Below, one piece after another: positions 2,755 to 30,540 of a stretch of 39,530 nt of DNA. Positions within the stretch are counted from its first letter, which is position 1, and the number at the start of each line of letters is the position of its first letter. Both the position numbers and the translations under genes were made by a program. The stretch lies in the NCBI GenBank assembly GCA_025450815.1, contig JANWLO010000053.1, positions 1 through 39,530 on the forward strand, written 5' to 3'. This DNA is from Gemmatimonadaceae bacterium (GTDB lineage: Bacteria > Gemmatimonadota > Gemmatimonadetes > Gemmatimonadales > Gemmatimonadaceae). The notes beneath the pieces were generated by a model, which saw only the letters and a list, made by a program, of their open reading frames with translations, searched no databases and was not told the origin of the DNA.

Positions 2755-5700
2755 TTACAGTCCAGCCGTGTGGCGCAATCGTTCACATGCGTGGCCGAGC
2801 TCCGAGTCGCCGCACTCCTGCGCTGCTCGTGCTCCAACATCCAGCATCGCGCGCGCCCGGTCCGGCATCGACGCGGCCGCCGCGGCGCGCGATAGCTCGT
2901 AGCACATCCATCCTTCACCGCGTGCATCGCCACTCTGAATGCGTATCGCCCGCGAGCGCTCGAAATGCGGCAGCGCGCGATCGGGCGCACCCGCATCCAT
3001 CTCCACGTTCCCGAGCATGCCGAGCGTGTGACCGAGCAAGTCGGCGCGCGGACAGAGCTCGTTGTACGCCAGTGCACGCTGAAGAGTTTCGCGCGCGTCG
3101 TCGAGGCGTCCCAGCGTTCGCAACGTGAGGCCGAGGCTGTTGAGTGCCAAGCCGACTCCTTCCGTGTCCTCGCATGACGAGAACGCGTGGAGCGCCATCT
3201 CGTACTGATCGAGCGCCGCCTCGTAGTTTGCCCGTCCAAACTCTAGAATGCCGATGACGTTGCGCAAACGGCCTTCAGTACGACTATCGGCGAGCGATGC
3301 CGCAAGCCCCGCCGCATCGTGAAAGTGCGGCAGCGCAAGAGAAGGCTCGGTCGAGATCAGTCGCGTCACGCGTCCGAGGCCCTCCACCGCAGTGAGCTCG
3401 CCGGCTCCGTCGCGGAGCTCGCGCCGAAGCACACGCGCCTGGGTCCATGCGCCGAGCGCCTCGGCGTCGCGGTGCTCCTGCTCGTGCACACGCGCGATGT
3501 CTTCCCACAGATCCGCTTCACTCGGGCGGTTCTCAAGCTGCGCGAACAGGCGTGCCGCCTCCTGGAGAAGCGGCATCGCGTCCGCGCCTCGACCGAGTGC
3601 GAGTAGCACCTCGCCCAGCACGCGCAGCGAGTGCGAGAGTCCTGGAACGAAGTTCGCGCGGCGCGTGAGGTCGATTGCCGTTCGATAGTGGTCGAGACTC
3701 TCGTCGATGCGCCCCGCCTGCAGGGAGAGGTGCGCGATCGCCGTGTAGTGATACGAGAGCTGGATCGGCAGCCGCTCACCGATCGTGCTCTCGGTTGCAC
3801 GCTTCATGAGCTCGAGGGCGCGCTCGACCTCGCCCATCTGACGATGAACGTTGGCCAGGATGTGAATGAGGTAAAACTGCTTCACTGCCGCGTCGTTCCT
3901 GACGGCAGCGTCGGTCGTTTGCGACAGGATGCGCTCCGAGAGATCGATACCCTCCGCGAGACGCGACTTGGCCTCCTCGTAGCGTCCGAGTCCCTTGAGC
4001 ACGTCGCCGAGGTTCGAGAGGTCGCCGAGCACGGCCATCTCGTCGGCGCGATCGCGATCGATATTGAGCGCTTCCTCGATGTTGAGCAGTGCCTCGGCGT
4101 CGCGCCCCTGGTGCCAGCGCAGCAATCCCAGGCTGCGCAGCGCGTGCCGCACGCCAACCGGATCGTGGATCTCGCGGCGCAGACGCAGCGAGTGTTGAAG
4201 GGCTGCATCCGCTGCCTCGAACCGGCGCAGCAGGGTGTGCAGATCGCCTTGGCGCATATAGACCTCGGCGAGCTGCGCCGGATCGTCATCGGCCTGAAGC
4301 AGCGCCACCATCTCGTCGATGAGATTCTGCTGTCGTTCGCGCAGCCCGAGAGTTTCTCCCAGTCGCTCCTGGCGGAGAAGCAGCTCGACCGCGCGCGAGC
4401 GGGACGAGGCGTTGGCGGGGACCCTGGCGAGCCAACCCTGCGCCCGCTCGAGCAGCTGCATTCCTTCGGTGAACTCAGCGAGGATGGTCGCGCGGTCCGC
4501 AGCGAGTATCGCATATTGCACCGCCTTCTCCCACAGCTCGGCACGCGAGAAGTGATGCGCGAGGCGCTCCAACTGGTCGTCCGGAAGCGCGTTGCCGAGA
4601 GATTCGATGGCGTGGCCGACGCGGCCGTGCAGCGTTCGCCGGCGGTGCTCGAGCAGCGTCGCGTATGCCACTTCCTGCATGAGGACGTGCTTGAAGCGGT
4701 AGGTGGCCATGGGAGCAACGCGGATCTGCTCGATGAGACCGGCCATCTTCAGCGACCTGATCGCCGCGTTTAGCGAGCTCGCGTCGTCGAGCGTTAGCTC
4801 CAGCACGTCGCGTCCGAACTCGCGCCCCACCACCGATGCCACGAGGAGGGCGTCGCGGGACTGAGAGTCGAGGCGATCGAGTCGCGCGCGAATCACCGCC
4901 TGCACGGTGCCGGGCAAGCGAAGGGTCTCGATGGAGCCGGCAATCTCGATGGCGCCATCTGCCACGCGCAGCGTGCCGTCTTCCTGGAGTGCGTGACACA
5001 TCTCCTCGAGAAAGAACGGATTGCCGCCGGTGCGCTCGCGCAACAGCGCGGCGAGAGGTGCCGGAACGTCATCCGCCCGCAGAGCGGCGCGCAGCAGATC
5101 GTGCGTGGAGCGCTCGGCCAGCGGCGCGAGCGTAACCGTTGCGTGTGGCGCGACGGTACCCCAGTCGTTCACGTAGCCCGGGCGGCACGTGACGACGACC
5201 AGCAGCGAATAGTGCGAGACGAGCTCCGCGATCTGAGCGAGAACGGCGTGCGAAGCGTCGTCCACCCAGTGCCAATCCTCCAGCAGCAGCGCAGTGGGGC
5301 GAGTACGGCTCGCGGCGGTGATGAATGCGGCGATGGCCTCGCGCGCCATGAGACGAAATTCCTCGCCCTGCAGGTGCGGTGAGATGCGGAGGTCGGTTGC
5401 GGGAACCGAGAGCAGACGCAAATAGAGTGGGAGGAACTCTTCGAGCTCCGGCGCACTCGAGTGCATGCGCGCCAGATCATCCACGATCGTTTGCGATGCG
5501 TCGGCGGCGGGAGCAACTCCTAGTGCATCTCTCAATACATCGATGAAAGGCAAGTAAGCGGTGGATGCGCCGTGCGACAGGCAGCGTCCACGCAGCACCG
5601 TGAGGTCGTCATCGCTGGCTGAGGTGAGCAATTCCTGGAGAAGGCGGCTCTTGCCCATCCCGGCTTCTCCGATGATCGTCACGAATTGGCCGTCGCCCGC

Positions 5701-7566
5701 GCGCGCCTGAGCGAGGCAGTCGCGCATGAGTGCGAGCTCGCGATCACGGCCGGTGTAGGGCGTGATCTCGCCGTGCTGCAGCGCGGCCTCAATGCGGGTT
5801 CGCACCTCCGACTCGCCGGAGATCTCGTACGGTGTTACTTGCCGGTCGTCGTCGAGCACAGTGACGCCGTCGCGCGACGAGAGACGAATGGGCGGCTCGA
5901 TGAGCCGGCGGCAACGCGGCCCCACGAGGACGCCGCCCGGCGGTGCCATTCCGGCCAGGCGAGACGCGAGGTCGAGCGCGGGGCCAGCGGCGTGAAACGG
6001 AGCTGCGGCGTCGGCAGACGGGCGAACGATCAGGCGGCCCGCATCCATTCCGACGTGAATGCGCAGGTGCGACGCTGCGGTTGCGGAATCTCCATCCTTC
6101 TGATGATTCTCATCGGTCGCGCACTGGGCAAGCGCAATGGCGGCGCGCGCGGCGCGAAGGCAGTCGTCTTCGCGTGCATGCGACACGCCGAACAACACGA
6201 CGGCGCCATCGCCATCGAGTCGATTCACGACGCCGTCGAATTGCGCGGCGATGTCAGTCACGCGTGCGCGGACGCGCTGCATCTCTCGCGAAGCATGCTC
6301 CGGACCGCGCGTCTCCAGGAGTGACGCGTGCCCGGACACGCGAATGGTGAGTACAGCGGCTTCTCGCCCCTCGCCATCGACGTTGAACTGCGGCGAATCC
6401 GCGCGATCGCGTTCGCCACGGCGCTTATGCGTGCTCGCCATGTCGAGTCCGAGCAGCGAGCCGATCGTCTCGAGCTCCGCCGCGAATCGCGCGACGGAGG
6501 CGGGCCGGTCCGCCGGATTCTTGGCGAGTGCCGCGCACACGAGATGGTTGAGCGACGGCGGAACGTCACCGCGCCGGGCGATGATCGATTCCGGCTCCGA
6601 GATACAGATGGCGGCGGCGACCGTGCGGGGGTCGGTGCCGCGGAACGGCCGCGCTCCCGTGAGCATCTCGTACATCACCACGCCGAGCGACCAGATGTCG
6701 GTGCGTGCGTCCACCGGATCGGCGCACGTTTGCTCGGGACTCATGTAGGCGGCGGTGCCGGGAGTGTAGCCGGGCGCCGTGATCGCCAGATCGCCGAGCT
6801 TGGCGATGCCGAAGTCCAGGATTTTGAGAACTCCTTCAGGGGTGACGATGAGATTCGCCGGCTTGATGTCGCGGTGAACGATGCCGCGCTCGTGGGCCGC
6901 CGCGAGCCCGCGCGCCGCCTGCAATGCGAACGACACAGCGTCTTCGATGGAAAACGGTCCGCGCGTGAGCCGGGAGGCGATCGTCTCGCCACCGTAATAG
7001 GGCATGGCGATGAAGAAGCGATCGTCGGACGTCTCGCCCACTTCGTAGATGGTGCACACGTTCGGATGATCGAGGCTCGCGGCAGCCTGCGCCTCGACTC
7101 GCATACGTTCGCGCGCGACCGCATCGCCAAGGAGATACGAGGGAAGAAACTTGAGCGCGACCGTGCGCTCGAGGCGCTGGTCCCACGCCTTGACCACGAT
7201 ACCCATGCCGCCGTCGCCGAGTGGGCCCATGAGGCGGTAGTGCGAGCCCACGGTGTCGGGTCCCCACGCAGCGTCCTTCGTCGCGTCCTCGAGCGAGACC
7301 GAGACCGTATCGATCACTGGATGATCCAACGGGCTGGTGCGCTCGTGTGCACGGAGCAGCGACTCCAGGTCGCGACGCAGCTGCGCATCCGATGCGCCGA
7401 GCGAGTCGAGCATCGCTGCTTGTTCGACCGGAGAAAGATCGAGCAGCGACGCGAGCGCATCGCTCGTGCGCCGCCAGTCGTGCGCGGTGCGCGATGCCCG
7501 ATTTCCTGGCAGAAGGTCGCGCAACCGTCTTTCGATGGCTCGGACCGTTGCTCTCACGTCTCGCAC
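2755..7566 (-). CDS. Giant Ser/Thr kinase - cyclase-like - AAA ATPase - TPR regulator
   Basis: This 1603-residue soluble protein combines four modules. Residues about 30-75 match the helical region that often precedes such kinases (LDLSPVEQAAMLDSLG). An intact Hanks-type kinase follows at about 108-375, with the glycine loop GPLGDGGMG, VALKFLP, the catalytic loop HRDIKPAN (Asp233) and DFG. Residues about 400-575 resemble a class III nucleotide cyclase, but the first metal-binding Asp is Arg409 (TIRVSGH in place of FADVVGF); the second site is kept as DGDGAVVLFG (Asp451/Asp453). An AAA_16-type NTPase begins near 615 with Walker A GEAGMGKSR (Lys639). The C-terminal half is TPR repeats. Such proteins act as signal-integrating ATPases, and the substrate is unknown. 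The cyclase module probably does not make cAMP. Confidence 0.92.
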   Translation of the reverse strand: MRDVRATVRAIERRLRDLLPGNRASRTAHDWRRTSDALASLLDLSPVEQAAMLDSLGASDAQLRRDLESLLRAHERTSPLDHPVIDTVSVSLEDATKDAAWGPDTVGSHYRLMGPLGDGGMGIVVKAWDQRLERTVALKFLPSYLLGDAVARERMRVEAQAAASLDHPNVCTIYEVGETSDDRFFIAMPYYGGETIASRLTRGPFSIEDAVSFALQAARGLAAAHERGIVHRDIKPANLIVTPEGVLKILDFGIAKLGDLAITAPGYTPGTAAYMSPEQTCADPVDARTDIWSLGVVMYEMLTGARPFRGTDPRTVAAAICISEPESIIARRGDVPPSLNHLVCAALAKNPADRPASVARFAAELETIGSLLGLDMASTHKRRGERDRADSPQFNVDGEGREAAVLTIRVSGHASLLETRGPEHASREMQRVRARVTDIAAQFDGVVNRLDGDGAVVLFGVSHAREDDCLRAARAAIALAQCATDENHQKDGDSATAASHLRIHVGMDAGRLIVRPSADAAAPFHAAGPALDLASRLAGMAPPGGVLVGPRCRRLIEPPIRLSSRDGVTVLDDDRQVTPYEISGESEVRTRIEAALQHGEITPYTGRDRELALMRDCLAQARAGDGQFVTIIGEAGMGKSRLLQELLTSASDDDLTVLRGRCLSHGASTAYLPFIDVLRDALGVAPAADASQTIVDDLARMHSSAPELEEFLPLYLRLLSVPATDLRISPHLQGEEFRLMAREAIAAFITAASRTRPTALLLEDWHWVDDASHAVLAQIAELVSHYSLLVVVTCRPGYVNDWGTVAPHATVTLAPLAERSTHDLLRAALRADDVPAPLAALLRERTGGNPFFLEEMCHALQEDGTLRVADGAIEIAGSIETLRLPGTVQAVIRARLDRLDSQSRDALLVASVVGREFGRDVLELTLDDASSLNAAIRSLKMAGLIEQIRVAPMATYRFKHVLMQEVAYATLLEHRRRTLHGRVGHAIESLGNALPDDQLERLAHHFSRAELWEKAVQYAILAADRATILAEFTEGMQLLERAQGWLARVPANASSRSRAVELLLRQERLGETLGLRERQQNLIDEMVALLQADDDPAQLAEVYMRQGDLHTLLRRFEAADAALQHSLRLRREIHDPVGVRHALRSLGLLRWHQGRDAEALLNIEEALNIDRDRADEMAVLGDLSNLGDVLKGLGRYEEAKSRLAEGIDLSERILSQTTDAAVRNDAAVKQFYLIHILANVHRQMGEVERALELMKRATESTIGERLPIQLSYHYTAIAHLSLQAGRIDESLDHYRTAIDLTRRANFVPGLSHSLRVLGEVLLALGRGADAMPLLQEAARLFAQLENRPSEADLWEDIARVHEQEHRDAEALGAWTQARVLRRELRDGAGELTAVEGLGRVTRLISTEPSLALPHFHDAAGLAASLADSRTEGRLRNVIGILEFGRANYEAALDQYEMALHAFSSCEDTEGVGLALNSLGLTLRTLGRLDDARETLQRALAYNELCPRADLLGHTLGMLGNVEMDAGAPDRALPHFERSRAIRIQSGDARGEGWMCYELSRAAAAASMPDRARAMLDVGARAAQECGDSELGHACERLRHTAGL

Positions 7567-10393: not shown

Positions 10394-10924
10394 ATGAGTC
10401 CCACGGACAATCCCTCCGCGCGCATCCGGCGCGCGGTTCCGGGCGATGCGCCTGCGCTGCTCACGCTGATGCGCGGACTGGCGAAGTTCGAGGGTTATGC
10501 TGCCAACTTTGCGGTGGATGAGGCGACGCTACAACGGCAGGGATTCGCGCGCGTGCCTCCCGACTTCTACGCACTGGTCGCCGAGTCGCCGCGCGAGACG
10601 CGTGAGCTGGTTGGCATGCTCGTGTACTATCTCATCCCTTTCACCTTCCGCGCGCGTCCCACGCTCTACATCAAGGAGCTATTCGTCGCGGAATCCGGAC
10701 GCGGGCTTGGCGTCGGCGAGGCGCTCATGCGCGCGGCGGCCGGCGCTGCGATCGAGCACGACTGCGCGACGATCAAATGGCAGGTTGCGGAGTGGAATGC
10801 GGATGCACAGCGATTCTACGAACGCCTCGGAGCGATGCCGGCGCGAGAGTGGGTGGAGTACGCACTGTCGGAGTCAGCGATGCGGGCGCTCGCGCGCCGG
10901 ATGCCGGCGGGCGACCGCTCCTGA
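10394..10924 (+). CDS. GNAT N-acetyltransferase, diamine acetyltransferase-like
   Basis: This 176-residue protein opens with IRRAVPGDAPALLTLMRGLAKFEGY and has the GNAT acetyl-CoA site at about residues 96-115 (LYIKELFVAESGRGLGVGEALM, with R/Q-x-x-G-x-G/A represented by GRGLGVG). The C-terminal block IKWQVAEWNADAQRFYERLGAMP is typical of spermidine/diamine acetyltransferases (SAT1-like), including the WN.A..FYE.LGA signature. The likely reaction is transfer of acetyl from acetyl-CoA to a primary amine; the substrate is inferred only from family resemblance. It starts 9 bases after the TPR lipoprotein gene, so the two are probably co-transcribed. Its 3' end overlaps the convergent tetR gene by 51 bases. 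Confidence 0.88.
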   Translation: MSPTDNPSARIRRAVPGDAPALLTLMRGLAKFEGYAANFAVDEATLQRQGFARVPPDFYALVAESPRETRELVGMLVYYLIPFTFRARPTLYIKELFVAESGRGLGVGEALMRAAAGAAIEHDCATIKWQVAEWNADAQRFYERLGAMPAREWVEYALSESAMRALARRMPAGDRS

Positions 10925-11530
10925 CGTCGGGCGCGCGGAGAGCCCCTCCAGGAAATACTGGACCACCTGCTTCACGAATCGTTCGGTGACGGGCTCGTGG
11001 CGGACGAACATGCGGTAGAACAACGGCCCGAAGAGAAGGTCGACTGCCACCTGAGGCGAAACATCGGCGCGGAGCGTGCCAGCTTCCTGCGCGCGAATGA
11101 GCGCGCCCATGGATCCCTCGCGGCGCGGATAGAAGAGTCGGTCGAGCAGGGCGGTGCGGACCTCGGGGTCCTGCTGCGCTTCGCCGAGTAGAGAGGTGAG
11201 CAGCTGGCCAGTGAGGCCGTTGGCGGCGATGGCACCGCGACGGAGCTCGGTGAGGATCTCTCGCAGCGGGTCGCCGCTCTTTTTCGGAGGCGGCGCGGCC
11301 TCGGCGGCGACTTCCACGAGCAGGTCGACGAGCAGCGATGCTCGATTGGGCCACGAGCGATACACTGTGGTCTTGGCGACGCCGGAGCGTGCGGAAACGG
11401 CCTCGATGGTAGCGGATGCGTAGCCGCCTTCTTCGACGAGCGAGCGCGCGGCGTCGAGCACGGCGCGATGAGCGCGCTGGCTGCGCGGGCGACCGGGGGG
11501 CGCGGCGGTAGGTCCGGAGTGTGAGGGCAT
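10874..11530 (-). CDS. TetR/AcrR-family transcriptional repressor
   Basis: The 218-residue product has an N-terminal TetR helix-turn-helix at about residues 20-65 (AVLDAARSLVEEGGYASATIEAVSARSGVAKTTVYRSWPNRASLL, cited here in its diagnostic parts) and a C-terminal ligand-binding domain of the TetR_C type (MGALIRAQEAGTLRADVSPQVAVDLLFGPLFYRMFV). The start chosen is the ATG at 11530; a longer frame to 11596 would run through the operator. A 23-bp palindrome lies 9 bases upstream and a second copy of its arms lies before the divergent lamin-tail gene, so autoregulation and control of that gene are likely. The inducer is unknown. The 3' end overlaps the convergent GNAT gene by 51 bases. Confidence 0.92.
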   Translation of the reverse strand: MPSHSGPTAAPPGRPRSQRAHRAVLDAARSLVEEGGYASATIEAVSARSGVAKTTVYRSWPNRASLLVDLLVEVAAEAAPPPKKSGDPLREILTELRRGAIAANGLTGQLLTSLLGEAQQDPEVRTALLDRLFYPRREGSMGALIRAQEAGTLRADVSPQVAVDLLFGPLFYRMFVRHEPVTERFVKQVVQYFLEGLSARPTSGAVARRHPARERPHR

Positions 11531-11539
11531 GATAGGACG

Positions 11540-11562
11540 ATACGCTCCAGCGCGTAGCGTAT
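11540..11562. promoter_or_regulatory. Putative TetR operator O1
   Basis: The site is an inverted repeat ATACGCT-N9-AGCGTAT. Flanking G and C extend the arms to 8 bases. It ends 9 bases before the tetR start codon, where binding would block tetR transcription or its initiation. The same arms and spacing recur at 11607-11629. Confidence 0.75.
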
Positions 11563-11589
11563 CAAGACTGGCATCCCAATGGGCGCTCA

Positions 11590-11618
11590 TTGACAATTGA
11601 ACCTTTATACGCTACGCT
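11590..11618 (+). promoter_or_regulatory. Candidate promoter of the lamin-tail lipoprotein gene
   Basis: A perfect -35 hexamer TTGACA lies at 11590-11595. With a 17-base spacer the -10 would be TACGCT at 11613-11618, which keeps the three most conserved positions (T, A and final T). Operator O2 covers this -10, consistent with repression by the neighbouring TetR protein. The -10 is weak, so this is a candidate only. Confidence 0.4.
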
Positions 11619-11629
11619 ACGTAGCGTAT
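11607..11629. promoter_or_regulatory. Putative TetR operator O2
   Basis: This is the second copy of ATACGCT-N9-AGCGTAT. Here the symmetry is even better: ATACGCTAC and GTAGCGTAT form 9-base arms around five bases, and an internal 14-base perfect palindrome ACGCTACGTAGCGT is also present. It lies 42 bases before the lamin-tail lipoprotein ATG and overlaps its candidate -10. The centre-to-centre distance to O1 is 67 bases. Confidence 0.75.
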
Positions 11630-11670
11630 TTGATAGTGAACCCTCGACGACCACCGTACGGAGACCACCC

Positions 11671-12438
11671 ATGACTACCCTGCCGGAAGCGCGACGAGCT
11701 CGCGCGCGCGCGACCCAAGTCGCATCGACACTCGTGCTGTTCGGCGCCGCTGTCCTCGCCACGGCGTGCGATTACAACGCGTCCGAAACGCCACGCCTGG
11801 TCACTACCGTTAGCCTCGATGTCGCCGACACCACGATCGAAGTAGGGCAAGCCACCGAAGTCACGGCGATCGCGCTCGACCAATACGGCGATTCGATCGC
11901 GAGCTCGCCGGCATCGTACGCCTCCTCGGCTCCCGAAATCGCCGCCGTCAGCCCCACGCTCGGAACGATCCTCGCCATCTCCGCCGGCACGGCTCGCATC
12001 GACGCGACGATAGAGTCGAAAAGCGCCCATCTAACTCTGACCGTCGTCCAGGCCGCGATTCGGATCAACGAGATCAGGCCGAATGGCGACATCCCCGGTG
12101 GCTGGGTCGAGCTCTTCAACCCAACGGCGACGGCCGTAGACATGTCGGGATGGACGATCACTTCGGGTGACGTGTCGCACGGCTTCGAGTTCCCCAGCGG
12201 AGCCTCGATTCCCGCTAGCGGTTACCTGGTGATCGCCGAACAGATTCTTCCGCTCGGGCTCAAAGCGGTGGACGCGGTCCACCTATTCAGTCGATTCGGC
12301 GTGCAGGCGGATTCGTACTCGTGGACGGCGAACCCGTTGACCTCGTTCGGCCGATGCCCGGACGGAACGGGTGCCTTCGTTACGACTGCGGCGGCAACCC
12401 GCAAGGCGACGAACGTCTGTCCGGCTGTCGACCCGTGA
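11671..12438 (+). CDS. Lamin-tail-domain lipoprotein with Ig-like domain
   Basis: The 255-residue product has a long Arg-rich n-region, a hydrophobic core and the lipobox LATA before Cys33, so it should be a lipoprotein. Residues about 44-125 resemble a bacterial Ig-like (BIG2) domain, with SLDVADTTIEVGQATEVTAIALDQYGD and the ending AGTARIDATIES...LTLTV. Residues about 127-250 are a lamin-tail (LTD) domain: IRINEIRPNG, WVELFNPTATAVDMSGW, FPSGASIPASGYLVIAE and a terminal SFGRCPDGTGAF. LTD domains occur in secreted nucleases and surface proteins, but no enzyme domain is present here, so a binding or scaffolding role outside the cytoplasm is likely. The start is ATG 11671 after GGAGA. It is divergent from tetR with two shared operators. 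Confidence 0.85.
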   Translation: MTTLPEARRARARATQVASTLVLFGAAVLATACDYNASETPRLVTTVSLDVADTTIEVGQATEVTAIALDQYGDSIASSPASYASSAPEIAAVSPTLGTILAISAGTARIDATIESKSAHLTLTVVQAAIRINEIRPNGDIPGGWVELFNPTATAVDMSGWTITSGDVSHGFEFPSGASIPASGYLVIAEQILPLGLKAVDAVHLFSRFGVQADSYSWTANPLTSFGRCPDGTGAFVTTAAATRKATNVCPAVDP

Positions 12439-12520
12439 CGCCGTCGCGTTCGCGTCCGGCGCCGACTATCGTTCGATGCAGCTCACGACCTTCTTCATCA
12501 CTCGATACTCGGACACGGCA

Positions 12521-13045
12521 ATGGAGTTCGATCTCGCGCACGGCACAGCGGTTCTCGAGCGCACGCCGCAAACAATGCGCGCATTGCTACTTGAGCTTCC
12601 CGCTTCGTGGGTAGATGCAACTGAGGGCCCGAAGACGTGGAGTCCATACGTCATCGTGGGCCATCTCATTCACGGCGAGCGCACGGACTGGATTCCGCGG
12701 GCGAAGATCATCCTCGCGCAGGGCGCGAATCGTCGCTTCGTCCCCTTCGATCGATTTGCGCAGCTCCGCGAGAACCGCGACAATTCGCTCGCCGACCTGC
12801 TCGATGAGTTCGCCCGACTTCGCACGCAGAATCTGGCGACGCTCGCCTCGTGGCGACTGACCGATGCCCAGCTCGCGCTCGAGGGAGAACACCCTGAGCT
12901 CGGCCGAGTCACGCTGCGCCAGCTGCTGGCCGCCTGGATCGTTCACGATCTCGGACACGTGGCGCAGAGCGCTCGCGTGATGGCCACGCAGTATCGCGAG
13001 GCGGTTGGCCCGTGGCGAAAGTATCTGACGATTCTGGATCGCTGA
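12521..13045 (+). CDS. DinB-family protein
   Basis: From the ATG at 12521 the product is 174 residues and begins MEFDLAHGTAVLERTP, the usual beginning of this DinB subgroup. The family forms a four-helix bundle with a three-His metal site. Candidates are His48 (VGHLIHGERTDW) and His142/His146 (WIVHDLGHVAQ). DinB-fold enzymes act as thiol-dependent transferases for bacillithiol, mycothiol or glutathione in some bacteria; the substrate here is unknown. The frame is open upstream and an ATG at 12476 would add 15 residues, but neither start has a strong ribosome site. It follows the lamin-tail gene by 82 bases and precedes the MOSC gene by 8 bases. Confidence 0.85.
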   Translation: MEFDLAHGTAVLERTPQTMRALLLELPASWVDATEGPKTWSPYVIVGHLIHGERTDWIPRAKIILAQGANRRFVPFDRFAQLRENRDNSLADLLDEFARLRTQNLATLASWRLTDAQLALEGEHPELGRVTLRQLLAAWIVHDLGHVAQSARVMATQYREAVGPWRKYLTILDR

Positions 13046-13053
13046 CGCGCACG

Positions 13054-13707
13054 ATGACAACTCCGAGTGTGCTCTCTGTGAACGTCGGCAGCATCCGCGA
13101 GATCGAGTGGCGCGGCGAAATCGTCACCACCGGCATCTGGAAGAACCCTGTAGCCGGACGCGTGGCGCTACGCGGCGTGAACCTCGCCGGCGATGACCAG
13201 GCCGACCGCACGGTGCACGGTGGTCCGGACAAGTCGGTCTACGCGTACGCGCGAGAGGACTACGACTTCTGGCGCGACCAGCAGGGACTGGAGACCCCGG
13301 CGGGATTGTTCGGCGAGAATCTAACCGTCCAGGGAATCGATCTGTCGTCGGCGCTCGTGGGTGAGCGATGGAACGTGGGCTCGACATTGCTCGAAGTGAC
13401 GCAGCCGCGCCTTCCGTGCTACAAGCTCGGGATTCGCATGGGCGATCCGTATTTCCCAAAGCGATTTCTCCAGGCGCGGCGTATGGGGGCGTACTTCCGA
13501 GTGATAGAGGAAGGCGACGTAGGTGCGGGCGACGAAGTACACGTCACGACTCGGCCGGAGCACGGCGTCACACTCCGCATGATGACCCAGGCGCTGCGCG
13601 ATAGCGATAAGGCTGCGCGGCTGCTGGCGGTGGACCGACTACCGGCATTCTGGCGACGGCTGGCGGCGGACTCGAGACGTAACTTCGACGCGCCTCCGGA
13701 GGTGTGA
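13054..13707 (+). CDS. MOSC-domain protein, YiiM-like
   Basis: The 217-residue product matches the MOSC beta-barrel seen in YiiM: VLSVNVGSIREIEWRG, the HGG block in DRTVHGGPDKSVYAYAREDYDFW, GLFGENLTVQG, VGERWNVGSTLLEVTQPRLPCYKLG and a C-terminal helical part. The Cys in LPCYKLG corresponds to the conserved cysteine thought to handle the molybdenum cofactor or sulfur. YiiM reduces N-hydroxylated bases using molybdenum cofactor; a similar detoxifying role is possible. ATG 13054 was chosen because homologues start close to the VLSVNVG strand; the frame is open to 13012 inside the dinB-like gene. It lies 8 bases after that gene, so co-transcription is likely. Confidence 0.87.
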   Translation: MTTPSVLSVNVGSIREIEWRGEIVTTGIWKNPVAGRVALRGVNLAGDDQADRTVHGGPDKSVYAYAREDYDFWRDQQGLETPAGLFGENLTVQGIDLSSALVGERWNVGSTLLEVTQPRLPCYKLGIRMGDPYFPKRFLQARRMGAYFRVIEEGDVGAGDEVHVTTRPEHGVTLRMMTQALRDSDKAARLLAVDRLPAFWRRLAADSRRNFDAPPEV

Positions 13708-13786: not shown

Positions 13787-14584
13787 ATGCGCCGCATCGT
13801 GATAGGCGAAGCGGAGCGCCAGGATGCGGTCGCGATCGACCCGCACTGGTTCTCCGTCCTCGATCGATCGGTGCCGTGGGCGAGCGGCCTCACGTCGCCG
13901 GAGCGCGCACGCCTGCTCAAGGCGGCGCGCGAGCTGCTCAACACGCGGCACTGGGAAGGGTGCGGCGGACTCACGCTCGACGCGGACATGCGGCTCGTGA
14001 TCGCGGCGCAGGCCTGCCTGCTCACGCTCGGGATTCCGGGAGAGCCCTTCCCGGGCCTTCGCGAGATTCTCGTGTACCCGGCTGGATTCCTGGCTCGACG
14101 CGTACGCGACCGGCGCAAGTGGACCGTCTCGAGCACCGGCGAGCAACCGACACCGGAGCTTGGCGAAGCGTGGACGAATGGCGTCATCGTGCTGGGCTGG
14201 GAGGCGGCGCGCGAGGGAGCCAGCGATCCGCAAGATGGACAGAATCTGGTGCTCCACGAGTTCGCGCACCAATTCGCGTACGACCATCATCTCGTGCCGG
14301 CGCCGGTCTCGCAGGCGATAGTGCTCGAGGACGTGTCGCCAGTGGTTCGCGACGCCGAAGCGTGGGGACGCGTGCTCAGAGAGAGCTACGATCGCCTGTG
14401 CGCGAAGGGAGTCGCCGCGACGGTGCTCGACAAGTACGGCACGACCGACCTCGCCGAGTTTTTCGCGGTGGCCACCGAGGCGTTCTTTGAGCGGCCTGCG
14501 GAGCTGAGACGCGAGGATGGTGAGCTGTTCGCCCAGCTCGTCTCGCTGTATCGTCAGGATCCATCGACCCGAATCGCGGCCTGA
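13787..14584 (+). CDS. mtfA: MtfA-like zinc peptidase (M90)
   Basis: From ATG 13787 the product is 265 residues with the M90 zinc motif HEFAH (His157, Glu158, His161) and the downstream block EFFAVATEAFFERP that supplies the third ligand. GLTLDADMRLVIAAQACLLTLG and ILVYPAGF are further MtfA hallmarks. In E. coli MtfA is an aminopeptidase that binds Mlc and affects the glucose PTS; the target here is unknown. The same reading frame continues upstream of the ATG through a clean hydrophobic helix (FDFLAVVLSVGILIALGVFVIAPLM in pieces), but no ATG, GTG or TTG is available there. The true start may be a CTG at 13736 or 13751, or a base may be missing, and the real protein may be membrane-anchored. 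Confidence 0.85.
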   Translation: MRRIVIGEAERQDAVAIDPHWFSVLDRSVPWASGLTSPERARLLKAARELLNTRHWEGCGGLTLDADMRLVIAAQACLLTLGIPGEPFPGLREILVYPAGFLARRVRDRRKWTVSSTGEQPTPELGEAWTNGVIVLGWEAAREGASDPQDGQNLVLHEFAHQFAYDHHLVPAPVSQAIVLEDVSPVVRDAEAWGRVLRESYDRLCAKGVAATVLDKYGTTDLAEFFAVATEAFFERPAELRREDGELFAQLVSLYRQDPSTRIAA

Positions 14585-18472: not shown

Positions 18473-18616
18473 AATTCGGCATCGAAGAAAGTTCACGCAG
18501 GATCCTGACCGCGCGCGTACAGCACTCGGACCGCTCTCGCATGCACCGCTGTCATTCGATCGGCAGCTCAAGGAGGTGACGCGCCAGGGCACTCGCACGG
18601 CCCCGTCGTTTCTTTT

Positions 18617-18641
18617 TGCCGGATCACCCATCGATCCGGCA
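18617..18641 (+). promoter_or_regulatory. Stable stem-loop in the susC 5' leader
   Basis: TGCCGGATC and GATCCGGCA form a 9-base perfect stem with a seven-base loop. The stem is preceded by a T-rich run (TTTCTTTTT) and is followed by no T-run, so it is not a plain intrinsic terminator on this strand. It ends 58 bases before the susC ATG and would sit in the untranslated leader if transcription starts upstream. Confidence 0.45.
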
Positions 18642-18699
18642 TCCACCAGTATGCCGCACGCGACGCGCACCATCGCGCGCGGACATGGAGAGGCCGCTT

Positions 18700-21600
18700 A
18701 TGCGTAATCGATTTTGTCGGTACGCGTTCATCGTCGCGGCGTGGCTCGCGCCAGCCACGGTGATCGCACAGCAGGCCACGATTTCCGGACGAGTCATCGA
18801 CAAGGCAACACAAGCTCCCGTTCCCAGCGCTCAGGTCACGATCGTCGGTAGCACGCGCAACGCTCTCACTAACGACAAGGGCGAGTTCACCGTGCGCGCC
18901 GTGGCGGCAGGAAACATCACGCTCCGCGCAACTCGCATCGGATACGCCGCGAGCACGCAAGCCGTCACTGTGCCCGACAGCGGATCCGTCACCGCCGACT
19001 TCGCGCTCGGCGCAACGCCCTCCAGGCTTGGCGAGATTGTCGTGAGCGCCACTGGCGAGCAGGAGTTGAGACGTCAACAGGCCGTCTCTGTCGGCACGAT
19101 CAACATGGATTCCGTCAACCTCGCGCCCGTCAACAGCTTCTCGGAGCTGCTCACGTCGCGCACGCCGGGCGTCGTTGCAACCTCCGATGGAGGCACGCTC
19201 GGCTCCGGCACGCGCATTCGCATTCGCGGATCCAATTCCGTCTCCCTCAGCAACGACCCGCTTATCATCATCGACGGTGTCCGCGCGAACGGTAGCGAAG
19301 GGTCGTCGACAATCGGTGTCGGCGGTCAGGTGCCGTCACGACTCGACGACATCAATCCCGAGGATATCGAGACCATCAACGTCATCAAAGGGCCCGCCGC
19401 GTCTTCGCTATACGGCACGGCCGCCGCGAACGGAGTCATTCAGATCACCACAAAGCGTGGCCGCATCGGGAAGTCGCAATGGAGCGCGCATGTGTCCGGG
19501 GGATCCGTCTCCAACTACATCAAGTTCCCCGCCAATTACGCTGCACTCGAAGTGGACGGAACCGATACGGTCTTTTCGCAGAATACGCCGGGGACCGGCC
19601 CCTGCATCACCGACTTCCAGGCGTTCGGCCTCTGCACGTTCACCGGGCTGCAGTCATTCAACCCGCTGGAGGCGAATAGCCCGTTCATCACGGGAAATAC
19701 CCAGAGTTACGGACTCGCGGTGAGCGGGGGCAGCGAGGCCATGACCTACTACATCAGTGGCCAGCTGGACGATGACAAGGGCGTCTACGAGATCAACAAG
19801 CTCCGCCACGCCACGCTGCGCGCGAACGCGACCGCGCACCTCAGCCCAAAGTTCGACCTAACTGTGAATAGCTCGTTCGGACAGAACCGGCTTCGTTTGC
19901 CGCAGAACGACAATAACGTGCGCGGCGTGATACCCACCGGAATTCTCGGCCTCGCGTTCGATGATCCGGTGAATCACGGCTTCGCTTTTCAGCAGCCGGC
20001 CAACATCTTCGCGATCAATACGCAGCAGAACACCGAGCGCTATACCGGATCGGCGACTGCCACGTGGCGCCCGCTCACGTGGCTTAGTGTGCTAGGCGTA
20101 ACCGGATTGGATTTCTCAAACCGCATCGATCAGGAACTGATCCCGACGTATCTCGACAACGGCATCACGAGTCGCTTTGCCGATGATTCAATTGGTCAAC
20201 GCACGTCGAATCCGTTCCAGACGTTCATCTACACGCTGAATGCGAGCGCCACTGCGAGTTACGGACTGCGCCCCGGTCTCTCGGCATCGACCACCATAGG
20301 CACGCAGTACTCGCAGGACTATTCACACGGAACCTTCGCGTTCGGAAAGAATCTCGCTCCGGGCACCGGCTCCCTAAGCGGCGCGACGGAACAGGCCGCC
20401 GTCAATGAGGCCACAACCAAGGACATCATCCTCGGCGCGTACGGACAAGAGCAGATCAACTGGCGCGACCGCGTATACATAAGCGGTACGATTCGGGTCG
20501 ACAAGAACAACGCTTTCGGACAGAACTTCAAGTCCATCGTGTATCCCGGTGCCGGAATCTCATGGGTGATTGGCAACGAGGACTTCTTTCCTAAACAGAA
20601 CTTCCTGTCGGACACTCGACTTCGCGCCGCGTACGGTCAATCGGGCCAACAGCCTGGATTCCGCGACGCGACGGCGTTCTACTCTCCTGTAGCGGTCCAC
20701 GCGGACAACATCGACCAGGCATCATTTACTCGCGGCAACATCGGGAACCCGAACCTCAAGCCCGAGCGCACCGGCGAAACCGAGCTCGGATTCGAGACGA
20801 ACCTCTTCAAGAACATTTTCGCGCTGGACTTCACGTGGTACGACAAGAAGACCAGCGACGCGCTCATCCAGACTCAGCTCGCCCCGTCGAACGGCTTGCA
20901 GCAGCTCTTCTTCCGAAACCTCGGCAGCGTTCAGAACAAGGGAATCGAGCTGTCGCTCAGCGGTACGCCGGTAAAGCTTGCGAACTTCAGCTGGGATTTC
21001 ACGGTTGGCGGGTCGCACAACAAGAACACGGTGCTCAATCTCGGAAAGGATATCAAGCCGATCATCTTCGGCGATCAGCGTCACCAGAACGGCTATCCGC
21101 TCGGCGGCTACTGGGCGGTGCCGTACACGTTCAAGGACATCAACGGGGACGGCGCGATCACCAGCGAGAACTGTCCCGGCACCGGATGCGAGCTCGTGCT
21201 CGGCGACACCGCGGTGTACCTCGGATCACCGTTCCCGAGCTGGGAGCTGACTTTCGGCTCCGGCATAACGGTGTTCAAGTACATCCGGGTCTCCGCGCTA
21301 GTCGATCGCCGCACCGGAAACAAGCTTCTCAACCTCACCGAGGACTTTCGCTGCTCAGCACTGCTCATCTGTCAGGCGCTCAACCAGAACATCGATCCGT
21401 CGGTGAAGAAAACGTCCTCGCTCGCGGATCAAGCTGCCGGAATTGCCGCGTTCGAGGATGGAACGGATGCCGGCTATATCGAGGACGGGGGCTTCTGGAA
21501 GATTCGTGAGGTCGCAGTCACCCTCACGGCTCCCGATCGCCTCGCTCATCGCTTCGGCGTTTCCGGGATCAGCCTCTCGCTCGCTGGTCGCAATCTCGGT

Positions 21601-21729
21601 ACGTGGACCAAGTACAAAGGACTCGACCCTGAGATCAACGAAAACGGCGGTCTGAATTTCAGCACCGATGAATTTCTAAGCCAGCCGCCCGTTCGCACGT
21701 ACACCGTGCGCATGGATCTCCATTGGTAG
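18700..21729 (+). CDS. SusC/RagA-type TonB-dependent outer-membrane receptor
   Basis: The 1009-residue product starts at ATG 18700, 6 bases after GGAGAGG, and has a signal peptide cut after residue 23 (ATVIA). Residues about 26-105 are a carboxypeptidase-regulatory-like beta-sandwich (ATISGRVIDKATQAPVPSAQVTIVG), followed by a plug domain at about 115-230 with RIRGSNSVSLSNDPLIIIDGVRANG and IETINVIKGPAASSLYGTAAANGVI. The rest is a 22-strand barrel ending VRMDLHW with a terminal aromatic residue. SusC proteins use TonB energy to bring oligomers across the outer membrane in a complex with a SusD lid. The substrate is unknown and no glycosidase or peptidase gene lies in the same operon. The susD gene follows within 33 bases. 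Confidence 0.93.
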   Translation: MRNRFCRYAFIVAAWLAPATVIAQQATISGRVIDKATQAPVPSAQVTIVGSTRNALTNDKGEFTVRAVAAGNITLRATRIGYAASTQAVTVPDSGSVTADFALGATPSRLGEIVVSATGEQELRRQQAVSVGTINMDSVNLAPVNSFSELLTSRTPGVVATSDGGTLGSGTRIRIRGSNSVSLSNDPLIIIDGVRANGSEGSSTIGVGGQVPSRLDDINPEDIETINVIKGPAASSLYGTAAANGVIQITTKRGRIGKSQWSAHVSGGSVSNYIKFPANYAALEVDGTDTVFSQNTPGTGPCITDFQAFGLCTFTGLQSFNPLEANSPFITGNTQSYGLAVSGGSEAMTYYISGQLDDDKGVYEINKLRHATLRANATAHLSPKFDLTVNSSFGQNRLRLPQNDNNVRGVIPTGILGLAFDDPVNHGFAFQQPANIFAINTQQNTERYTGSATATWRPLTWLSVLGVTGLDFSNRIDQELIPTYLDNGITSRFADDSIGQRTSNPFQTFIYTLNASATASYGLRPGLSASTTIGTQYSQDYSHGTFAFGKNLAPGTGSLSGATEQAAVNEATTKDIILGAYGQEQINWRDRVYISGTIRVDKNNAFGQNFKSIVYPGAGISWVIGNEDFFPKQNFLSDTRLRAAYGQSGQQPGFRDATAFYSPVAVHADNIDQASFTRGNIGNPNLKPERTGETELGFETNLFKNIFALDFTWYDKKTSDALIQTQLAPSNGLQQLFFRNLGSVQNKGIELSLSGTPVKLANFSWDFTVGGSHNKNTVLNLGKDIKPIIFGDQRHQNGYPLGGYWAVPYTFKDINGDGAITSENCPGTGCELVLGDTAVYLGSPFPSWELTFGSGITVFKYIRVSALVDRRTGNKLLNLTEDFRCSALLICQALNQNIDPSVKKTSSLADQAAGIAAFEDGTDAGYIEDGGFWKIREVAVTLTAPDRLAHRFGVSGISLSLAGRNLGTWTKYKGLDPEINENGGLNFSTDEFLSQPPVRTYTVRMDLHW

Positions 21730-21761
21730 CCGGCGACCCCAACTCAAGCGAGATGCCAATC

Positions 21762-23132
21762 ATGCATAAAATTCGCGACAAGCGTTCTGGTCGCCGGATC
21801 TGGCTCGCGATTGCCGCAGGAGCGCTGCTCCTCACCGCGTGCAACGTCGACAAGTTGCTCAAGGCGACCGATCCGGACAACACGCCTCCTGGTGTGCTCA
21901 AAGGAGCACAGTCTCTTCCAGCCTTTCGTGCGAGCGCCATCGGTGACTTTGGCGTGGCCTTCGATGGAAACGCGCTCAATCCGGACGGCAATGAATACGA
22001 AGGGCTCGTCAACATGACGGGGCTGCTAACCGACGAGCTTCAGAATACCGAGACGTTTCCGACGCGCACGGAGGTAGATCGCCGTCACACGAACGTCGAC
22101 AACTCCACCATGCGCGACATCTTCTTCAACGTGCACGTCGCGCGCGTGTCGGCAGGGCGTGCGGCCAGCGCATTCGCCGCGTTCGGTCCGACCGATCCGG
22201 GGTGGTCCGAGGTGACGAGCCTTCAGGCGTACGCCATTCTTTTTCTTGCTGAAGACTACTGCTCCGGTGTTCCGATATCGAGCTTCGATACGGCGGCGTC
22301 GGTGTTCGTGGGTGGCGATCCGAACACCACGCAGCAGCTATTGGCGATAGCTGCCGACACCTTCACCGCCGCTCTCGCCCTTCCCCACGATCCCGACCGT
22401 CACTTTCTGGCTGAGGTGGGAAAGGCGCGCACGCTGCAATTCGAGGGTCGCTCACAGCTCGCGGCCGCGGCGACGCTCGTGGCCGACGTTCCGACGAACT
22501 GGACGTACAAGATCACCCATTCGAAGAACTCGCAGCACGAGTGGAACGGCATCTACGAGTTCATGTGGCTCGAAGGACGCTGGGTCCAGGCGAATGTCGA
22601 GGGTATCAATGGGCTGCCGTACCGTAGCGATCCAAGGAACCCATTCTCGACGAACGGCTCGACGTTCATTGGAAGTCCGTTCTTCGGAACGCTGCGCTAC
22701 AACTCCCAGGATTCGTCGACGGTTCTGGCAAGCGGCATCGAGGCACGGCTCATCGAGGCCGAGGCGGCGCTGCAGGCCGGGACGCCCGGTGTATTCCTGC
22801 AGAAACTGAATGATCTCCGCGCTGGCAGCGGATTGGGGCTGCCCGCGCTGACGGATCCGGGTAATGACAGCGCTCGCGCGAATCTGCTCTTCAGCGAGCG
22901 CGGTCAGTGGTTGTATCTCACCAACCATCGTCTCGCCGACCTTCGCCGGCTTTCGCGCCCGACGGCGAACGACGGGTACGGACGGGATCCCGAGACGGTG
23001 TTCCCCACGGGCGCATGGTTTCGCGGAGGCCCTTACGGCACCGACGTCAACTTCCCGATTCCGATCGAGGAGTTGAACAACCCCAACATTCACCAGACTG
23101 CACCAAATACCTGCATCGATCGCAATCCGTAA
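21762..23132 (+). CDS. SusD/RagB-type substrate-binding lipoprotein
   Basis: The product (456 residues from ATG 21762) has a clear type II signal peptide, IAAGALLLTAC, with lipidated Cys27. It has the helical TPR-like SusD fold: LQAYAILFLAEDYCSGVPIS, IEARLIEAEAALQAGTPGVFLQKLNDLRAG and the C-terminal block LLFSERGQWLYLTNHRLADLRRLSRP, ending NFPIPIEELNNP. It pairs with the SusC protein as an outer-leaflet lid that captures ligand. An ATG at 21753 or an upstream GTG could extend it by a few residues, but the AAGCGAGA site suits 21762. A bidirectional terminator lies 22 bases downstream. Confidence 0.9.
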   Translation: MHKIRDKRSGRRIWLAIAAGALLLTACNVDKLLKATDPDNTPPGVLKGAQSLPAFRASAIGDFGVAFDGNALNPDGNEYEGLVNMTGLLTDELQNTETFPTRTEVDRRHTNVDNSTMRDIFFNVHVARVSAGRAASAFAAFGPTDPGWSEVTSLQAYAILFLAEDYCSGVPISSFDTAASVFVGGDPNTTQQLLAIAADTFTAALALPHDPDRHFLAEVGKARTLQFEGRSQLAAAATLVADVPTNWTYKITHSKNSQHEWNGIYEFMWLEGRWVQANVEGINGLPYRSDPRNPFSTNGSTFIGSPFFGTLRYNSQDSSTVLASGIEARLIEAEAALQAGTPGVFLQKLNDLRAGSGLGLPALTDPGNDSARANLLFSERGQWLYLTNHRLADLRRLSRPTANDGYGRDPETVFPTGAWFRGGPYGTDVNFPIPIEELNNPNIHQTAPNTCIDRNP

Positions 23133-28326: not shown

Positions 28327-28656
28327 ATGACCACCGCCGTCGCCCCCAACCTCAGCCGAGCCGCTGAGCTCTTCCACGCCCTCTCCGACGAGACACGTCT
28401 CGAGATCCTCGAGATGCTGCGAAGCGGCGAACGCTGCGTCTGCGAGCTCACCAGCGATCTCGATGCCGCGCAATCCCGCCTGTCGTTTCACCTCCGCGTA
28501 CTTCGTGATGCCGGACTGGTCTCGGATCGCAAGGAGGGGCGCTGGTCGTATTACACGATCGTTCCTGAGGCGCTCGCGGAGATTCACGATCTGAGCATCG
28601 CGCTCCAGCCCACGAAGCGTCGTCGGGAGTTGCGCATCGCCGGACGCTGCTGCTGA
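28327..28656 (+). CDS. arsR: ArsR-family arsenite-responsive repressor
   Basis: The 109-residue product is a winged-helix repressor: LFHALSDETRLEILEMLRSGERCVCEL, then the recognition region LDAAQSRLSFHLRVLRDAGLV and the wing DRKEGRWSYYTI. Cys37 and Cys39 form the CVC metalloid-sensing pair at the start of helix 3, as in the ELCVCDL group. An additional Cys108-Cys109 pair closes the protein and could complete the arsenite site. It should repress its own promoter and that of arsM through the two ATCAA-N6-TTGAT boxes. It opens the cluster directly behind its operator. Confidence 0.92.
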   Translation: MTTAVAPNLSRAAELFHALSDETRLEILEMLRSGERCVCELTSDLDAAQSRLSFHLRVLRDAGLVSDRKEGRWSYYTIVPEALAEIHDLSIALQPTKRRRELRIAGRCC

Positions 28657-28695
28657 TCATTCGTTCGTTATGAAAGGATCTTTCGCATTCGATAC

Positions 28696-28711
28696 ATCAA
28701 CCTTTTTTGAT
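28696..28711. promoter_or_regulatory. ArsR box 2 (before arsM)
   Basis: The site is ATCAA-CCTTTT-TTGAT, the same format as box 1. It lies 15 bases before the arsM ATG and just ahead of its TTGGAGG ribosome site, in the 70-base gap after arsR. It gives ArsR a second point of control over the enzymes. Confidence 0.78.
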
Positions 28712-28726
28712 ACTTTGGAGGATACT

Positions 28727-29575
28727 ATGACCGGCACACCTGAGCTCACCAACATCGTTCGCGAGCGATACGGCCGAGCCGCGCAGCGCGTGCTCACGGG
28801 CGAGGGACTCCCCGCCGAGTGCTGCGGCCAGACCAGCTGCTGCACCGGCTCGGCGACCGCGTCGTGCGATCCTATTACGTCCAACCTCTACGTCAACGGC
28901 GAGACGGACGAGCTTCCCGAATCCGCCGTTCTCGCCTCCCTCGGCTGCGGCAACCCGACGGCGCTCGCCGAGCTCAAAGCCGGCGAGGTCGTGCTCGACC
29001 TGGGCTCCGGCGGCGGCATCGATGTGCTGCTCTCCGCGCGCCGCGTCGGCCCAACCGGCAAGGCGTACGGGCTCGACATGACCGGCGAGATGCTCGAGCT
29101 CGCGCGACGCAATCAGCGCGAAGCGGGCGTGGAGAACGTCGAGTTCCTCGAGGGACACATCGAGGCGATTCCGCTTCCCGATGCAACCGTCGACGTCATC
29201 ATCTCGAACTGCGTCATCAACCTGTCGGCCGACAAGCGGCGTGTGCTCGCGGAAGCATTCCGTGTGCTCAAGCCCGGCGGCCGATTCGCCGTGAGTGACG
29301 TCGTGGTTCGAGGCGAGGTACCCGCCGGCGTGCGCGAAAGCATGGAGCTCTGGGTGGGCTGCATCGCTGGTGCGCTCGAGGAGTCCGAGTTTGCGCGTCT
29401 CCTCGCCGAGGTCGGCTTCGAGAATCCGACGTTCGAGCCCACGCGTTTCTACGAGGCGGCGGACGCGGCTGCTTTCCTCGCGCAGTCGGGCCTCGACATC
29501 GACACCGTCGCACAGGAAATCGATGGGAAATTCATGAGCGCCTTCGTTCGTGCGACGAAGCCCGACGTGTCATGA
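28727..29575 (+). CDS. arsM: Arsenite S-adenosylmethionine methyltransferase
   Basis: The 282-residue protein follows GGAGG by 6 bases. It starts [14 protein letters not shown] and has SAM motif [22 protein letters not shown], the acidic motif [13 protein letters not shown] and the conserved [29 protein letters not shown]. The arsenic-binding cysteines are Cys74 (SLGCGNP), Cys162 (SNCVINL) and Cys212 (WVGCIAGAL), matching the three required in studied ArsM enzymes. An extra N-terminal set at Cys32/33 and Cys38/39 is also present. It methylates As(III) to methyl- and dimethylarsenicals using SAM, with reduction by cellular thiols. The stop overlaps the arsN2 start (ATGA). Confidence 0.93.
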
Positions 29576-30033
29576 GCGCCACGACCATGCCCGGCATCGT
29601 CATACGGCCAGCCGTGATCGAGGACTTGCCCGCCGTCGAGCGACTCCTCATCTCGAGCGACTTGCCAATAGCCGGAGTTGCCGGCTCCCTGTGCGCCTTC
29701 GTGGTGGCCGAGAGCGACGAGCGAATCGTCGGCGTCGTGGGCCTCGAGGTTTGTTGTGCGCACGCTCTGCTCCGCTCCACGGCCGTCGATCCCGAATTCC
29801 GCGATCGCGGGCTCGGCCGACTCCTCGTCGAGCGGATCATCGCCGAGGCGGAGGCGCGCGGCATTCGCGCCTTGTATCTGCTCACGACAACGGCAGAGCG
29901 CTACTTCCCGAGCTTTGGCTTTGTGACGACGACCCGCGATGCCGTCCCCGAGCCGATACGCGAGACGACCGAGTTCACGTCGGCGTGCCCGTCCTCCGCG
30001 ACCGTGATGTGCCTCGCCCTACCTACGCATTGA
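29572..30033 (+). CDS. arsN2: ArsN2 arsenic-resistance N-acetyltransferase
   Basis: The 153-residue GNAT protein begins VIRPAVIEDLPAVERLLISSDLP and has GLEVCCAHALLRSTAVDPEFRDRGLGRLLVERI, then ALYLLTTTAERYFPSFGFVTTTRDAVPEPIRETTEF and TSACPSSATVMCLAL. This combination, especially LLTTTAExYF and IRxTxEFxSxCPxSA, is the ArsN2 signature seen beside arsC and arsM in many bacteria. Its substrate is not settled; it is thought to protect against an arsenical. It shares four bases with arsM and is followed nine bases later by arsC, so it is part of that operon. Confidence 0.88.
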   Translation: MSATTMPGIVIRPAVIEDLPAVERLLISSDLPIAGVAGSLCAFVVAESDERIVGVVGLEVCCAHALLRSTAVDPEFRDRGLGRLLVERIIAEAEARGIRALYLLTTTAERYFPSFGFVTTTRDAVPEPIRETTEFTSACPSSATVMCLALPTH

Positions 30034-30042
30034 CGGAGACTC

Positions 30043-30540
30043 ATGCCGGCGACTCCCACGAGCGTCCTCTTTCTTTGCACCGGGAATTCCGCGCGCAGCC
30101 AGATCGCGGAGGCGCTCCTCGCGACGCGCGGAAGTGGTCGATTCCGTGTCGGGAGTGCGGGAGTGCATCCCGCGCCCGAGGTGAACTCGTTCGCCATCCA
30201 AGTGCTGCGGGAACGGGGGATCGATTGGCGCGGGAAACGCTCCAAAGCAATCGACGAGGTACTCGGCGAAACGTGGGATCTCGTCATCACCGTGTGCGAT
30301 CGCGCGAAGGAAAGCTGCCCGATTCTGCCCGGCCATCCGACATACGCACACTGGAGCCTCGACGATCCCGCAGCTGTTGAGGGCGACGAGGAAGCCAGGC
30401 GCGCTGCGTTTCGCCTCACCGCTCTCGATCTCTCGCGTCGCATCGACCTTCTGCTCGCGATACCAGCCAATCGCCTCGCGCCCGACGCATCCCAAAATCC
30501 CCGCTCTGTCGATTTCCCCTCCCCCCATTCGACGTACTAG
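30043..30540 (+). CDS. arsC: Arsenate reductase, low-molecular-weight phosphatase type
   Basis: The 165-residue product has the phosphatase P-loop CTGNSARS (Cys12, Arg18), the resolving cysteines Cys85 and Cys92 (ITVCDRAKESCPILPG), and the closing region HWSLDDPAAVEGDEEARRAAFRLTALDLSRRI. This matches the thioredoxin-coupled class of S. aureus ArsC (Cys10, Cys82, Cys89). It converts arsenate to arsenite, which ArsM then methylates. The C-terminal 30 residues are extra and Pro/Ser-rich. It begins 9 bases after arsN2. A small hairpin at 30545-30564 may end the operon. Confidence 0.92.
   Translation: MPATPTSVLFLCTGNSARSQIAEALLATRGSGRFRVGSAGVHPAPEVNSFAIQVLRERGIDWRGKRSKAIDEVLGETWDLVITVCDRAKESCPILPGHPTYAHWSLDDPAAVEGDEEARRAAFRLTALDLSRRIDLLLAIPANRLAPDASQNPRSVDFPSPHSTY

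Follow-up and report, generated by a model that had tools for sequence, protein, structure and literature searches.

The locus under study in the window, i.e. the complete 39.5-kb stretch of DNA that was analysed, consists of two divergently oriented genes that are separated by an intergenic gap of 140 bp. The tetR gene (positions 10874-11530, minus strand, ATG at 11530) was identified by Pfam models and encodes a predicted repressor of 218 amino acids with TetR_N and TetR_C_11 domains, in a host that we take to be a soil-type bacterium. The divergent gene (11671-12438, plus strand) specifies a protein of 255 amino acids with one Big_2 domain (1.5e-5) and one lamin-tail domain (LTD; PF00932, 1.7e-12, 48.1 bits with a gathering cutoff of 34.3). 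An N-terminal hydrophobic stretch resembling a signal peptide and a LATAC motif that represents a possible lipobox would place this protein at the cell surface as a lipoprotein, an assignment read from the sequence only; its fold model was of moderate quality (pLDDT 69) and was left out of use. The LTD gene is followed on the plus strand by genes encoding a DinB_2 family protein (12476-13045; PF12867, 2e-14), a YiiM-like MOSC-domain protein (13054-13707; PF03473, 1e-34) and an M90 peptidase domain protein (13787-14584; PF06167, 6e-60). The gaps in front of the DinB_2 and MOSC genes measure about 37 bp and 8 bp, respectively, and a terminator scan revealed no terminator-like site between the LTD and DinB_2 genes, nor on to the MOSC gene. 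Since the LTD gene appears to head this same-strand run, the divergent unit may extend beyond the lipoprotein gene, with the DinB_2 and MOSC genes possibly co-transcribed and the M90 gene possibly at its end. Cytoplasmic enzymes, which TetR proteins ordinarily control, may thus be among the regulated products.

The TetR protein matched the PF16859 (TetR_C_11) model with 8e-24 (84.6 bits, cutoff 32) and the PF00440 (TetR_N helix-turn-helix) model with 4e-11 (42.9 bits, cutoff 24). The AF2 model is all-helical, with nine helices and a pLDDT of 89. The closest solved structures were 2FQ4 from Bacillus cereus (E 1e-27) and SCO0332 from Streptomyces coelicolor (2ZB9; E 4e-26), which also share the fold (TM about 0.7-0.8), although the identity over the fold alignment amounts to only about 30-33%. 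Features of the TetR_C_11 subfamily that were found here are the N-terminal helix-turn-helix, the C-terminal ligand and dimerization domain and a palindromic operator-like site near the gene itself.

A pattern scan of the whole window detected the motif ATACGCT-N9-AGCGTAT twice without any mismatch, at 11540-11562 (ATACGCTCCAGCGCGTAGCGTAT; putative operator O1) and at 11607-11629 (ATACGCTACGCTACGTAGCGTAT; putative operator O2). Both palindromes are located inside the 140-bp gap at intergenic bases 10 and 77, with a start-to-start spacing of 67 bp; their coordinates and spacing are those given in the earlier note. A third copy was absent from the window even when up to three mismatches were allowed. 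Two palindromes with identical 7-nt arms did not occur in any of 20,000 dinucleotide shuffles of the gap. In the MAG from which the window originates (2.94 Mb, 68.5% complete), a search intended to define the regulon returned nothing beyond the local promoter, as the sites at 11540 and 11607 were the sole copies at 0-1 mismatch and the three extra sites at two mismatches correspond to the level of the reversed-pattern control. Approximately one third of the genome is missing from this assembly, so that further sites could exist.

With respect to the transcription start signals, a consensus scan predicted a tetR promoter TTGATA-N17-TATCGT (11537-11565, minus strand; TTGATA at 11565-11560 and TATCGT at 11542-11537), which is overlain by O1. 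The earlier note had placed O1 on the start region of tetR; the site in fact begins 10 bases upstream of the ATG, leaving 9 bases in between, and it is the consensus-type promoter that is covered. On the opposite strand, a possible promoter TTGACA-N17-TACGCT of the divergent unit (11590-11618, plus strand; TTGACA at 11590-11595 and TACGCT at 11613-11618) was read by eye and was not picked up by the strict consensus scan. O2, 41 bp away from the LTD start codon (ATG at 11671), would overlie the -10 region of this promoter. That O2 covers the likely -10 position of the lipoprotein gene holds for the best-placed candidate, but this -10 hexamer is weak when judged by the E. coli consensus, which covers Gemmatimonadota promoters poorly.

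To compare this arrangement within the phylum, a sample of 395 genomes was searched. The sole close and intact relative of tetR was found in genome G041, belonging to another genus of the same family, with 53-55% identity of the deduced proteins; the remaining full-length matches in the phylum showed about 40% identity or lower. In G041 (locus L037), the gap between tetR and the divergent gene also measures exactly 140 bp and contains the sites TTACGCGACACGGTGTTTCGTAA, which like O1 starts at gap position 10, and TTACGCTGCGCTGTGTGTCGTAT at position 75, shifted by 2 bp from O2. Both are 23-bp sites of the form WTACG-N13-CGTAW, with arms TTACG..CGTAA/T instead of the ATACGCT..AGCGTAT found here, and the second one lies 43 bp from the divergent start codon compared with 41 bp in the window. 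None of 20,000 shuffles of the G041 gap contained a pair of such sites. Moreover, no further match occurs in the whole G041 genome (96% complete; reversed-pattern control 0), and fetched loci totalling about 490 kb contained no additional copy of the pattern. A blind search for twin sites in the 395 genomes, performed without protein information, yielded these two loci along with two matches in one unrelated repeat element. The latter is a chance match on two contigs of a single genome (G125:C250:12790-12877 and C252:9350-9437; loci L114 and L115) and is composed of inverted repeats and 22-bp imperfect tandem repeats (TACGGCGAATNGC...).

The promoter layout appears to be retained as well. In G041, the sequence TTGTTA-N17-TAAATT is present at the place of the tetR promoter, and in both species the first site overlies a tetR promoter of the same layout (TTGWTA-N17). 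The probable counterpart of the divergent promoter, again read by eye, is CTGACT-N16-TACGCT, and in both species the second site would cover the -10 position. The leaders between this site and the start codon are weakly similar (123 of 5,000 shuffles were as good). The view that the palindromes are the probable operators of the adjacent TetR protein, already put forward in the earlier note, is strongly supported by these data, because in another genus the orthologue is likewise accompanied by two sites in a matching arrangement, with none elsewhere in the genome; this conservation comprises a single pair of loci, as there is one close orthologue in the phylum sample. A nested 16-bp palindrome within O2 (TACGCTAC-GTAGCGTA) was weighed as the actual binding site but dismissed, since it is the 23-bp register that recurs in G041 and in O1.

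Paired palindromes were also detected upstream of tetR in distant TetR_C_11 homologues with 30-36% identity (loci L040, L052, L053, L059 and L060), where the sites are 49-56 bp apart and 0-2 of 60 shuffles were as good; the shuffles were few, several window lengths were tried and other homologues contain no such pair. Twin sites accordingly recur within the TetR_C_11 subfamily, and the spacings of 49-67 bp fix neither a looping nor a cooperative model. Two further distant homologues (L049 and L039) are preceded by a single perfect palindrome (ATACGCTACGGTAGCGTAT and ATACGATACGGTATCGTAT, respectively) that has the ATACG half-site in common with the sites described here, in a 19-bp and not a 23-bp spacing. 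A scan of the contigs of a wider set of GTDB species yielded only distant TetR homologues (29-36% identity), as did plasmids.

Known repressors offer close parallels. EdcR of Caenibius tardaugens is a TetR_C_11 repressor that responds to estrogens and controls estradiol catabolic operons; its palindrome overlaps the -10 boxes of the target promoters, and a degenerate copy is present at its own promoter (PMC8700777). By its published description, EdcR resembles the protein under study in being a PF16859 repressor with a palindromic operator of similar length (TnnCnnTACnAnTnGTAnnGnnA) over -10 boxes, whereas the operator sequence and the estradiol catabolic targets are different. The Streptomyces proteins SAV576 and CalR3 are divergent TetR repressors with multiple footprinted sites in a bidirectional promoter and repress themselves and the neighbouring gene (PMC3742746, PMC5712553). 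They share with the locus described here a divergent neighbour and operator-like sites apparently at both promoters, in our case as judged from the positions of the sites relative to both start codons, but they act on a P450/reductase gene and on a transporter gene, and their operator sequences are dissimilar. The mechanism is an ordinary one: the TetR twin-site switch proposed here belongs to a known kind, and this classification is well supported.

The gene that faces tetR is not part of what is conserved. The divergent gene of G041 encodes a DUF6632 membrane protein (113 bits) instead of an LTD protein and appears to stand alone, with a convergent gene next to it. A second tetR-LTD pair was found in none of the 148 to 395 family and phylum genomes searched, and none of eight LTD relatives examined is located beside a related tetR gene. 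The LTD relatives in the family show 38-48% identity, the matches lying within larger proteins, several of which carry a weak phytase-like domain. With the search thresholds applied, neither the tetR nor the LTD gene was found in four genomes of the same genus, and the gene order around the locus is not conserved in same-genus genomes. Among the best literature matches, no bacterial TetR regulator linked to an LTD protein was present. DUF6632 was also considered as the ancestral partner and rejected, since 29 other genomes with DUF6632 contained no related tetR gene in the fetched flanks. Genome G016, of 7.5 Mb and listed as 100% complete, contains what is left of a degraded tetR gene related to that of the window (C4, around position 787400; L071, 5418-5770); the helix-turn-helix is missing, the identity amounts to 55% over residues 82-174 and the frame is broken further on. 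As judged from these comparisons, the conserved entity is the repressor with its twin-operator promoter, while the adjoining gene differs; a conserved pair in which a TetR protein controls an LTD surface protein therefore does not emerge. The unusual feature, an LTD lipoprotein gene at the head of the presumed regulated unit, was seen in a single genome and may reflect a local gene exchange.

We consider it very probable that the locus represents a self-contained one-component switch. A dimer of the TetR_C_11 protein would bind to O1, which covers its own promoter, and to O2 at the promoter of the divergent unit, and the bound protein would block RNA polymerase at both promoters, resulting in autorepression and divergent repression. 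A small ligand would then release the repressor, so that tetR and the divergent unit, i.e. the LTD gene and possibly the DinB_2, MOSC and M90 genes, would be induced together. That the palindromes are instead bound by another regulator, or represent ends of mobile elements or hairpin terminators, is very improbable. Palindromes do have such uses and proximity to tetR alone is no proof, but the position relative to tetR is kept across genera despite diverged sequence, the sites are not repeated elsewhere in either genome and no T-tract terminator was found.

Several explanations may be given for what the switch serves. In the view of the earlier note, the system would serve specifically to place a surface LTD/Ig binding lipoprotein under the control of a ligand, in line with the position of O2 over the LTD promoter and with the signal peptide and possible lipobox of the protein. 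This view is rather doubtful, as the pair recurs in no other genome searched, no related tetR gene adjoins the LTD relatives examined, which are embedded in larger proteins, some with a phytase-like domain, and the gene opposite the orthologous tetR is another one. The lack of synteny even within the genus and the absence of the pair from the relatives would also agree with tetR and the LTD gene having become neighbours only recently by rearrangement, or having even been joined in the assembly, so that the present neighbour of O2 would be accidental. We regard this as unlikely, since the leader from O2 to the start codon is nearly equal in length and weakly similar in both species, pointing to an intact spacing between promoter and start, and since the join is internal to the window. 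It is a reasonable possibility, though not the favoured one, that the biologically meaningful targets are the enzymes encoded downstream (DinB-type, MOSC and perhaps M90), and that the LTD gene simply heads an inducible operon of the detoxification type. The short gaps on one strand with no terminator-like site between them agree with this explanation, and distant TetR homologues adjoin enzymes that, on inspection of their sequences by eye, resemble SDR, aldo-keto reductase and VOC/glyoxalase-like proteins. On the other hand, the MOSC gene is present in the same-genus genome G056 without an LTD or DinB relative in the fetched stretch, and the divergent gene of G041 seems to be solitary, as a convergent gene follows.

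Tentatively, the tetR gene and the 140-bp promoter with its twin operators could be regarded as a portable switch, of which the exact geometry is kept and the driven gene is exchanged (for an LTD surface lipoprotein in one genus and a DUF6632 membrane protein in the other), one ligand-responsive circuit being re-used for different envelope-associated products. For a phylum that has received little study, the locus supplies a clearly delimited and testable candidate operator pair of an uncharacterised TetR_C_11 repressor. The locus further illustrates that a repressor and the layout of its promoter can be retained within 2 bp in two genera in which the regulated gene is not the same. It also argues for caution in deducing a function from one pair of tetR and neighbour, as a repressor dedicated to the LTD protein would have been concluded without G041.

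Further features were noticed in other regions of the window. No matches were obtained with defence-system models. At positions 28327-30540, a gene cluster resembles an arsenic-resistance set and includes an ArsR-type HTH_5 regulator, a methyltransferase that is probably arsenite-methyltransferase-like according to its cysteine-rich N-terminus, a GNAT acetyltransferase and a low-molecular-weight phosphatase/arsenate-reductase-like protein. The region 18616-23132 encodes a SusC-like TonB-dependent receptor with plug, barrel and carboxypeptidase-regulatory domains, and the SusD position thereafter is occupied by a lipoprotein-like open reading frame of 469 amino acids that matched no Pfam model at 1e-5. 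Finally, a protein of 1603 amino acids encoded at positions 2755-7566 on the minus strand combines a protein kinase domain with an AAA_16 domain and TPR repeats.
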